From the IMG/VR virus record IMGVR_UViG_3300048927_000764, positions 1 to 21,462 of that record: DNA of 21,462 nt; one strand, 5' to 3'. Positions 2,892-15,709 of the stretch are shown here, one piece after another. A program made the position numbers and the translations under genes. This DNA is from a virus. Every line of letters starts with the position of its first letter. Position 1 is the stretch's first letter. The notes beneath the pieces are model-generated. The model searched no databases, was not told where the DNA came from, and saw only the letters and a program-made list of their open reading frames with translations.

Positions 2892-3107
2892 TCAGTAAGC
2901 AAATTGTTCCTGCATACCTTTGGGATGCGGTGGCGCGGCGCTAATTTTTTGCGGACGGCACACAGAACGGACAAAAGTTTCATGCGTCACGAACGTATGC
3001 CCGCACTCGATGTTGGTGCACTGGTTGTAACGCTCTTTGGTTTCGTTGGAAACCTGGAAGCTGCTTCGGGTATGTGCAGCCTGTCCGCACATAGGACAAT
3101 TCATCAT
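2892..3107 (-). CDS. ogr: Ogr/Delta-family late transcription activator
   Basis: This 71-residue protein is the P2 Ogr type of activator, which binds upstream of phage late promoters and contacts the alpha subunit of host RNA polymerase. It has the family's zinc-binding pattern, Cys4-X2-Cys7-X22-Cys30-X4-Cys35, and the conserved TKERY-Q-C segment before the third cysteine. P2 Ogr is 72 residues. The start is the first of two adjacent Met codons (3107 or 3104); a GAGGG lies about 10-14 bases upstream. It follows D with a 67-base gap and is the last phage gene on this side. Candidate binding sites for it are given at 10161, 15404 and 21266. Confidence 0.95.
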   Translation of the reverse strand: MMNCPMCGQAAHTRSSFQVSNETKERYNQCTNIECGHTFVTHETFVRSVCRPQKISAAPPHPKGMQEQFAY

Positions 3108-8918: not shown

Positions 8919-10091
8919 TTATGCGCTGACCTGGCTGGCGAAATTCATCAGGTACTGGTCCGTGATGCGCTGGCGTAACAGCAGATTTTCCAGTGGTGGC
9001 ACTGGCGTGTAGTCGTAGTCGATCAGCAGCTTCCCGGCCTTGAGCGTGTCCTTGTCGTTCACGGACTCATCCAGCCAGCAGTCACCGCCAATCAGATAAC
9101 CCTGACTCACCAGGCTGCGCATTTTGGCGCGGATACCTTCGATAATGTCGCGGGCCAGGGACGGGTTGAGCGGTTTGTCCACCGCCCACATGTGGGCTTC
9201 TGCCATGGTGTCAGCCAGCACCTGTGCCGTGCGGGTGTAGCTCTCAAAGGCAAACAGCGGATCATCGCTCAGGCAGCGGGAACCCCAGAAGCGGAAGCCG
9301 TCTTTGCGGATAAGCGTGGTGATATCGTTCTGGTTCAGCAGGCCAGCATCGGTTGCCGGGTCCTGCAGGTCCCAGAACACATCAGCCGACAGCCCGGTGA
9401 CGCCGTTCACGCCGACGTTGGACAGGGTTTTGTGCCACCCGGTCTGTTCGTCGATTTTGGCACGCAGACCCAGGGCGCGGGCCGTGGCAAACGCCGTGGC
9501 ATCGGCCTGCAGCACGGTGTCAAAGTTGATGAAGTCAGGCCAGATCAACATCCCTTCACGCTGGCTAAAGTTCTCACGGTAAGTGATCGCTTCTTCCATC
9601 GTTTTGCAGCCATAGGCCGACAGGTAAGCGAACCCGCGCAGACTCTGCGCCACGCCCAGCAATTCGGTGGCAACGGCCTGCGTGTCATGGCCCGGCACGC
9701 CGAGAATGCGCGGCTTAACGCCCAGCTGAGACTGCGCCGACAGCAGCGCCTTGATGCCCGTTTTTTTGCCGTCAACCGTCACACCGCCGATGATGTTGGT
9801 GGTGGTTTCGGCTTCGGTTTCGCCCTGCGCCACGCGGATAACCACGGTGACAGGTTTGGCCTGGTCGGCAATCGCATCCAGTGAACGGGCCAGGGTGCCA
9901 GACTCGCCTGCTTTGCCGCTGGCAGTCAGTACGTCGGTCAGTAAGACAGGTTTATTGAGGGGAAACACTGACGGATCGGCGTCGTCCCCGGTGCAGACCA
10001 TTCCCACAATGGCGGTGCTCACCGTGGTAATGGTGCGGGTGCCTTCGTTGATTTCTTCAACGCGCACCCCGTGGTGGTAATCCTGAGCCAT
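8919..10091 (-). CDS. FI: Tail sheath protein gpFI
   Basis: This 390-residue protein matches P2 gpFI (396 aa), the contractile sheath subunit. It has the conserved N-terminus with [16 protein letters not shown] (the arm that links neighbouring subunits), a variable outward domain in the middle, and the C-terminal sheath region with [14 protein letters not shown] and [14 protein letters not shown]. An AGGAG lies 9 bases before the ATG. It is the first gene of the operon FI-FII-E-T-U-D-ogr and follows a late promoter with an Ogr site centred near 10170. Confidence 0.96.
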
Positions 10092-10160: not shown

Positions 10161-10180
10161 TTGTCTGAGTTATGATACAA
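10161..10180. promoter_or_regulatory. Ogr/Delta-binding dyad for the FI late promoter
   Basis: TTGT-N12-ACAA, with TGT at 10162-10164 and ACA at 10177-10179, matches the Ogr/Delta recognition pattern TGT-N12-ACA. Its centre is about 79 bases upstream of the FI start. On the minus strand a weak -10 (AATCAT, 10127-10122) sits 46 bases from the dyad centre, giving a start near 10115, at the known spacing of about -55. The same DNA contains the likely -10 of the gene at 10221. Confidence 0.75.
10171..10176 (+). promoter_or_regulatory. Candidate -10 of the accessory gene at 10221
   Basis: TATGAT (10171-10176), five of six matches to the sigma-70 -10, points toward the accessory gene and lies inside the spacer of the Ogr dyad. 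No good -35 is seen at the standard distance. An alternative is TTGTCT (10161-10166) with a poor -10 at 10183. Either choice overlaps the dyad. Confidence 0.4.
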
Positions 10181-10220: not shown

Positions 10221-10727
10221 ATGGTTTTTAGTGAGATTACCGTTTTGTCATGTCAAATAGTTGCGTCTTTGCTGATGGGGTGTGATTATTTCATGCCTTC
10301 CGCATGGAGAGCCAAGATCAATCATTCTCTTTCTGAATACTTTTCCCGGTTGAGGAATAATGTTGACAGGGATATATCCCAAAAATTCAAAGAAACACTT
10401 GCACAATTACAAATAGTATTTTTCTGTTTATGCCTGATAGGCATTGCAGTCGCCATATATCATTTTAGAGTTTTTTTATTTGAGAGCTTACCCCCCACAT
10501 TGTATTTATGCGTCACAATAACTTCACTTTTATGCGCAGTCATAGCACTGCATTACATCATCGGTCACACAGTAAAATTGCTCGTCGCATTAGGTCTCGG
10601 GGGGTTATTCTTCAGAAGTATTTCTGTATTCTTACTAAAAACAGAAAAAGGTCCACTTGCTGGAACAGGATTTTTAATGTTACTTATCTCATTCATTATG
10701 CGTTACGCAAATATCACTCATAACTGA
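10221..10727 (+). CDS. Accessory polytopic membrane protein at the P2 Z/fun locus
   Basis: I do not recognise the family of this 168-residue protein. Hydrophobic segments at about residues 5-25, 64-83, 92-116, 118-137 and 148-161 predict four or five membrane helices. Residues 26-62 form a charged, probably helical stretch (for example NNVDRDISQKFKETLAQ). No catalytic motif or lipobox is seen. The gene is AT-rich, points against the flanking late operons, and lies between G and FI, where P2 carries Z/fun (which blocks T5) and where related phages carry other defence genes. A superinfection-exclusion or other lysogenic-conversion role is inferred from location and topology only. A GAGAG-like sequence precedes the ATG. 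Confidence 0.75.
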   Translation: MVFSEITVLSCQIVASLLMGCDYFMPSAWRAKINHSLSEYFSRLRNNVDRDISQKFKETLAQLQIVFFCLCLIGIAVAIYHFRVFLFESLPPTLYLCVTITSLLCAVIALHYIIGHTVKLLVALGLGGLFFRSISVFLLKTEKGPLAGTGFLMLLISFIMRYANITHN

Positions 10728-10890
10728 ATATTTCGAACCAGAAAAGAAATTTACCACACAAAGGATATACTCTTTATCATGCGTCAAAAAAGAAATATCA
10801 AATTGGCGAATCAGTAATTCACACTTCAAGCAATTAAAACCGTAGTGCACGCTTCTAGCCTTATGAGGGGATTTGCATAATGGACGGATG

Positions 10891-10916
10891 GAAAAACCCC
10901 CGCACGAGGCGGGGGA
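10891..10916 (-). terminator. Intrinsic terminator after G
   Basis: On the minus strand a 7-bp stem (CCCCCGC/GCGGGGG, 10897-10915, 5-nt loop) is followed by five T residues (10896-10892), 5 bases past the G stop. It ends the V-to-G operon. The 163 bases between the accessory gene and this hairpin are AT-rich, and I see no gene in them. Confidence 0.85.
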
Positions 10917-10920
10917 GGAA

Positions 10921-11517
10921 TTAAGCGGCTGGTGCTTCAGGCCAGATAATGGCGGGAGCGGTGCTGGTATCCACTCGAGTCAGCAGCACGCGGTATTTGC
11001 GCCACTCATTAAAACGGGCCTTTTCCTCATCGGTTGCCATATCAAGATCAACCGCATCCTGCAGGGGTTCGATTTGCTCACTGGCACTTTTCATCAGTGC
11101 TGCTTTGGTGGCGTTTGCCGCTGCAACTTCTGCCGCCTGTTGTGCGGCTTCGTCCGTTACCCAGCGCTCACCGTTCCATTTATCGTAAGGCGTAGCGGGT
11201 TCATAAAGCGTGGTATTTACAGGGTAATCACCCGGCACAGTAATTAGCAAAGGTTCTCCCGTTTTGGTATTCCAGACGGTTTCACCACGATGATCAGCCT
11301 GATATTCCCACCCGGTCAGCTTACTGTTGCGGCAGACTACATAACCCGCTTTTGCTGCCAGAGGTTTGTCGGTGCAGGCATTCGCTGGAATGCTGACACC
11401 TACCGGAAGATATTCTGTAGACTGAGATAAATACTCCCGCGTCTGGGTGTCATAGTTAAAAACAACAATATCACCTGCCACTACGGCATAACCATATTCA
11501 AGAACTGCTGTCTGCAT
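10921..11517 (-). CDS. G: Tail fibre assembly chaperone gpG (Tfa family)
   Basis: This 198-residue protein belongs to the Tfa/gpG chaperones that fold and help trimerise the tail fibre; P2 gpG is 175 residues. The N-terminal part (VVFNYDTQTREYLSQSTEYLPVGVSIPANA) and the C-terminal signature (EKARFNEWRKYRVLLTRVDTSTAPAIIWPEAP) are typical. Between them is an Ala/Glu-rich helix (about residues 120-160). Its start overlaps the H stop by one base (TAATG). Such proteins usually match their own fibre tip, so G and H are likely to travel as a pair. Confidence 0.92.
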   Translation of the reverse strand: MQTAVLEYGYAVVAGDIVVFNYDTQTREYLSQSTEYLPVGVSIPANACTDKPLAAKAGYVVCRNSKLTGWEYQADHRGETVWNTKTGEPLLITVPGDYPVNTTLYEPATPYDKWNGERWVTDEAAQQAAEVAAANATKAALMKSASEQIEPLQDAVDLDMATDEEKARFNEWRKYRVLLTRVDTSTAPAIIWPEAPAA

Positions 11518-15403: not shown

Positions 15404-15423
15404 TTGTGCTATTCGTGGTACAA
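15404..15423. promoter_or_regulatory. Ogr/Delta-binding dyad for the V late promoter
   Basis: TTGT-N12-ACAA, with TGT at 15405-15407 and ACA at 15420-15422, has the same form as the site upstream of FI. A weak minus-strand -10 (CATTCT, 15370-15365) lies 46 bases from the dyad centre. Transcription would then begin within a few bases of the V start codon (15356). The dyad's right arm is part of the extended -10 of the gene at 15455. Confidence 0.75.
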
Positions 15424-15454: not shown

Positions 15455-15709
15455 ATGCCAATTATACGCGTTGACGTCGCCGCCGATGGATCAGTACTTT
15501 TTCAAAAAATTGAAGATGACTCCGCTCCGCTTACGTTGCTATTTAATGAACATGGGAGCAGATTTATTGATATTGCTGAAAAAAAAGGAATTGCTGGATT
15601 CCTTACTATTCCTGAATTTTCAGGGTTATTAAAAGAAGCTAGCAATAAAAATAAGTTATCAATTATTCCTAATCACCAAGCAGGAATAACGGCAATAATA
15701 ATTAACTAA
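15455..15709 (+). CDS. Accessory small soluble protein at the P2 orf30 locus
   Basis: I do not recognise the family of this 84-residue protein. It begins MPIIRVDVAADGSVLFQKIE and has no membrane segment, signal peptide or cysteine. Alternating hydrophobic strands at both ends (IIRVDV, AGITAIIIN) around a helical middle suggest a small alpha/beta fold. A ribosome binding site (TGGAG) sits 7 bases before the ATG and the promoter is plausible, so it is likely expressed. It is AT-rich and faces away from V and against S, in the place of P2 orf30. An autonomous lysogen-expressed gene (moron) is the best reading. The function is unknown. Confidence 0.7.
   Translation: MPIIRVDVAADGSVLFQKIEDDSAPLTLLFNEHGSRFIDIAEKKGIAGFLTIPEFSGLLKEASNKNKLSIIPNHQAGITAIIIN

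Follow-up and report, generated by a model that had tools for sequence, protein, structure and literature searches.

We analysed a stretch of viral DNA, hereafter the window, that comprises positions 1 to 21,462 of the IMG/VR virus record IMGVR_UViG_3300048927_000764 (21,462 nt). Within it, a gene for a 168-aa protein, here called the cargo gene, lies on the plus strand between P2-type late genes, including FI and G, that are carried on the minus strand. The interval holds the following features, in order of position.

8919-10091, minus strand: FI, encoding the tail sheath, which borders the slot on the left (PF04984, PF17482, PF22671).
10161-10180: Ogr/Delta activator box of the F-operon late promoter, an exact match to TTGT-N12-ACAA.
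10221-10727, plus strand: cargo (moron) gene for a polytopic membrane protein of an unnamed family, 168 aa, start codon ATG (from the open reading frame, homologs, selection and an AlphaFold model).
10767 to about 10855, plus strand: what is left of the 5' part of a second cargo gene, now broken, of which loci L002 and L006 have intact copies (from blastn and a MAFFT alignment against L002).
10897-10915, minus strand: V-operon intrinsic terminator, which follows G; an annotated terminator occupies the equivalent place in P2.
10921-11517, minus strand: tail fibre assembly gene G (gpG equivalent), right border of the slot (PF02413).

The cargo open reading frame is a real gene under selection, as two measurements reveal: none of 500 dinucleotide shuffles of the intergenic region contained a frame of 168 aa or more (mean longest 61, maximum 159), and comparison with the closest relative, in L002, gave a dN/dS of 0.17, which indicates purifying selection. 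Between these two sequences, the protein is unchanged over residues 1-30 and 139-167 even though 11 nucleotides differ there, and within a second subfamily dN/dS ranged from 0.11 to 0.30. The GC fraction is 0.368 over 10251-10750, whereas most of the phage part lies at 0.55-0.62. An earlier note on this DNA had described an AT-rich, reverse-oriented gene between G and FI, and both the composition and the frame, which falls exactly at 10221-10727, bear this out.

That note had also placed the gene in the Z/fun cargo slot of a P2-type prophage, and the anatomy of the interval agrees closely. According to the P2 record, fun(Z) runs opposite to the late genes, flanked by the V-operon terminator on one side and the activator site of the F-operon promoter pF on the other, which is the same succession of terminator, cargo gene and Ogr box that we see in the window. 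The G-FI interval is also published as "moron position 2", where E. coli CFT073 carries the acyltransferase gene neaT in reverse orientation, a gene that affects host-interaction and aggregation phenotypes (PMC3573123). The window gene has the marks of a moron in this position, namely its place between G and FI, its orientation opposite to the late genes, a foreign composition (GC 0.37 versus about 0.58) and a patchy presence among close relatives.

Only 40 nt separate the Ogr box from the cargo ATG, and the four relatives in the same slot (L002, L004, L009 and L010) likewise have an Ogr box just upstream of the start codon. Because the box is so close, a promoter of the cargo gene would have to overlap it or lie beyond it, so that Ogr might switch the cargo gene off during the lytic phase; a promoter scan upstream of the gene revealed no clear sigma-70 promoter. 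Further exact Ogr boxes precede V (15404) and O (21266), where P2-type late promoters would be expected. Adjoining the first of these (15404-15423) is a second reverse-oriented, low-GC open reading frame, between S and V (15455-15709, plus strand, 84 aa), which had no family match in Pfam, PHROGs, NCBIfam or PADLOC; P2 has orf30 in this S-V slot. At the left end of the window are what we take, by reading, to be grxA-like (1-264) and ybjL-like (916-2601) host genes, followed by a presumed ogr-like gene (2892-3107, minus strand). This succession from host-like genes to an ogr-like gene suggests an attachment junction at about 2.6-2.9 kb, and the integrase and early genes fall outside the record.

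The cargo product is predicted to be a membrane protein of four or five helices. Hydropathy places membrane segments near residues 1-24, 61-79, 96-114, 120-138 and 145-163, and an AlphaFold2 model built on a shallow alignment of 6 sequences (mean pLDDT 84, pTM 0.55) has helices at 5-24, 27-61, 63-81, 83-89, 92-140 and 145-167. Taken together, these predict a protein that begins with a membrane helix, continues with a long charged helix of 35 residues (27-61) and then a hydrophobic helix bundle, and ends in a conserved hydrophobic helix at 145-167, in agreement with the four or five membrane helices and the charged helical loop (residues 26-62) that had been read from the translation in the earlier note. 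A structure-aware homology search, which the same note had proposed, was run on the predicted model with Foldseek (BFVD, PDB) and VIA-align, and yielded no match with E <0.001; the best Z was 7.9, to varied helical proteins, so that the matches are generic helical ones within the noise stated for helical bundles.

Sequence searches were similarly empty, in keeping with the earlier reading that the protein has no recognisable motif. Nothing in Pfam, PHROGs or NCBIfam matched above the curated cut-off, no PDB entry matched, PADLOC 2.0.0 had no model matching either the window protein or its L012 relative, and the phage, plasmid and E. coli collections gave no match to the gene by DNA or protein. 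Pfam matches to Anoctamin, Sec15 and DUF5693 (E near 0.01-0.1) were below the cut-off and inconsistent between relatives, and were set aside. Eight relatives were nevertheless found. Four share the G-FI slot of P2-like prophages and the orientation, one at 77% identity to the window protein (L002, in Enterobacter wuhouensis) and three at 31-33% (L004, L009 and L010), two are in decayed prophages (L011 and L012), and two, at 26% (L134) and 37% (L137) identity, come from the same phylum and lie outside any recognisable prophage. Across all nine sequences F3, Q12, A15, M19, Y23, L138, T141, K143, G144, A147, G148, G150, L154, L155, S157 and F158 are invariant, so that conservation is concentrated at the N- and C-terminal ends, with drift in the middle, and conserved motifs include DY and TEKGP. 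In genome searches, which sample one genome per species, the family is rare, with two credible matches in 392 genomes from one family, and one in 61 and one in 37 genomes of the two genera holding relatives. The profile rests on nine sequences, and the relatives may be under-counted, since some collections omit records near the window. One candidate (G198; 23% identity, six stops) was rejected, as were weak profile matches in about 30 enterobacterial genomes, most of them in open frames of >1000 codons and at residues 23-137, the pattern expected of large transporters that match by composition. The protein thus represents a new family, and the gene a moron of a known kind in an already published slot.

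To see what else occupies the slot, as the earlier note had suggested for P2-like prophages, we surveyed the 80 loci in IMG/VR whose FI proteins are closest to that of the window, and the cargo family was absent from all of them. This absence bears on whether the gene could be a structural or lytic-cycle gene of the phage, such as a lysis regulator, rather than cargo. Its position within the late region and its several membrane helices, as in holins and antiholins, would fit such a role, but the opposite strand, the low GC, the operon terminator that stands between and the presence of the family in two non-phage contexts also argue against it, and we regard it as very improbable.

Most of the surveyed loci have little or no cargo between G and FI. 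Where cargo is present, it includes acyltransferases assigned by Pfam to Acyl_transf_3 (PF01757) in L013, L017, L064 and L072, with the L028 cargo nearly identical to that of L017, and a second unannotated membrane-protein family of about 205 aa in P2-like prophages (L063, L074 and L085, ~730-20 nt upstream of FI) that is unrelated to the window protein. The L039 slot encodes a 240-aa, presumably effector-like product that may resemble SopE, and a SopEPhi record is among the nearest phages. The earlier note's expectation that relatives carry defence genes between G and FI therefore stands only in part: the slot does carry accessory genes, of the kinds just listed, whereas the hotspot at which defence has been validated in P2-like phages lies between A and Q, at old/tin (Rousset et al., PMC9122126). 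That hotspot resembles the G-FI slot in being an accessory site, and the anti-phage systems validated there include some that have membrane proteins (PMC9122126), but it is a separate locus near cos and its systems are not the cargo family as far as PADLOC covers. Because G-FI also carries acyltransferases and the validated hotspot lies elsewhere, location alone supports lysogenic conversion and not specifically defence.

These acyltransferases also raise a different role, in which the window gene is a lysogenic-conversion gene serving the envelope or host fitness, as neaT at moron position 2 does (PMC3573123), and not phage exclusion. The neaT-type cargo shares with the window gene its slot, orientation, AT-richness and multi-pass membrane character, but is twice as long and belongs to an enzyme family (PF01757) that the window protein, with no enzyme motif, does not match. 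The chromosomal relatives, moreover, have HEPN-like and toxin-antitoxin genes as neighbours rather than envelope genes. We consider an envelope or fitness role unlikely, though one of the two main rivals of phage exclusion.

The neighbours of the relatives revealed a second gene that was absent from the earlier note. In E. wuhouensis it encodes 160 aa (L002:6549-7031), 41 nt downstream of the membrane gene, and an intact copy at 99% is present in L006; the window retains a stub without a start codon, internally deleted and missing its 3' part. Since this stub persists 3' of the cargo gene, a two-gene ancestor is most likely for the window. An AlphaFold model of the second gene product had a mean pLDDT of 32, and from a "YHAS ... 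AIYIT" pattern we would guess that the protein may be ADP-ribosyltransferase-like. The gene ahead of the membrane gene in L137 encodes a 131-aa protein that carries a HEPN-type motif, RNKLAH, and over that motif weakly matches the PDB entry HepS (E 0.04). This pair forms a two-gene insert (L137:6850-8422) flanked on one side by an intact gcvPB and on the other by a 221-nt repeat of the gcvPB 3' end (93% identity), and looks, from its sequence, like a small mobile element integrated at gcvPB. The L002 second gene and the HEPN-like partner have no similarity to each other. Near L134 there is an MqsA antitoxin gene, and the P2-like prophage of genome G223, which also carries a relative of the cargo protein, has an OLD-like AAA ATPase/TOPRIM gene (L139:2607-4583, minus strand; PF13175, PF20469) in its V-S slot. 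Near the relative in the decayed prophage L011 is what we take, reading by eye, to be a HEPN (MAE_28990-like) and DUF262 pair (L011:7390-9139, minus strand).

Such pairings could mean that the cargo gene is one half of a two-gene unit, for abortive infection or toxin immunity, whose small cytosolic partner was lost in the window, perhaps leaving an antidote or a no longer triggered effector behind. The intact second gene in L002 and L006, its broken stub in the window and the discrete L137 insert with its HEPN-like partner are consistent with this. The dN/dS value may mostly predate the loss of the partner. Against such a unit, L004, L009 and L010 leave no room for a second gene, since only 3-4 nt lie between the cargo stop and the end of G, and the partners in L002 and L137 are dissimilar; we judge it unlikely, though it is the other main rival. 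A more novel reading, also unlikely, would make the family the membrane component at the centre of a modular anti-phage system not yet described, in which a five-helix protein with fixed end helices would combine with interchangeable small cytosolic partners (HEPN-like in the L137 cassette, the unrelated 160-aa protein in Enterobacter) and would stand alone in P2-like prophages.

Evaluating these observations together, phage exclusion appears to be the likeliest role of the cargo protein, and our leading, though tentative, interpretation, which we would put just short of an even chance, is that the gene is a membrane-acting phage-exclusion moron in the G-FI slot of a P2-like prophage. It is favoured by the slot and orientation shared with fun(Z), a T5-blocking gene by annotation, by the insulation that the V-operon terminator and the Ogr box give the gene on either side, by the four same-slot relatives at 77% and about 31-33% identity, whose retention spans diverged prophages, by purifying selection together with the helical membrane model, and by the company that the relatives keep (the OLD-like gene, the HEPN-motif partner and MqsA). 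Known exclusion proteins offer a further parallel, as P22 SieA, P22 SieB and lambda RexB are likewise small prophage membrane proteins, theirs excluding other phages, and P22 sieA is also a reverse-strand gene interrupting late genes.

The same interpretation is weakened because the family has no similarity to known exclusion or defence proteins, and because the slot also holds acyltransferases and other non-defence cargo, the fold searches stay within helical-bundle noise and there is no clear sigma-70 promoter upstream. Fun(Z) itself differs in length (528 aa), and profile comparison revealed no detectable homology between it and the cargo family (hhalign probability 0.13%), nor any sequence similarity to SieA, SieB or RexB (0.2-1.3%); a short "KTEKG" match in SieB, at 1.3%, was judged to be chance. 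If exclusion is indeed the role, the gene would be a lysogenic-conversion gene with a transcription unit to itself, expressed during dormancy of the phage to yield a small inner-membrane protein that may exclude other phages either by superinfection exclusion or by membrane-acting abortive infection. The conserved first and last membrane helices would then form the working surface, and the variable charged helix at 27-61 would lie in the cytoplasm, where it may sense or bind a phage or host factor.

With these observations, the cargo of a textbook phage slot, so far sparsely characterised, gains a membrane-protein family that has no name and occurs both in phages and outside them. Should the protein exclude phages, it would represent a compact single-gene system at a site outside the defence surveys that have centred on the old/tin hotspot.
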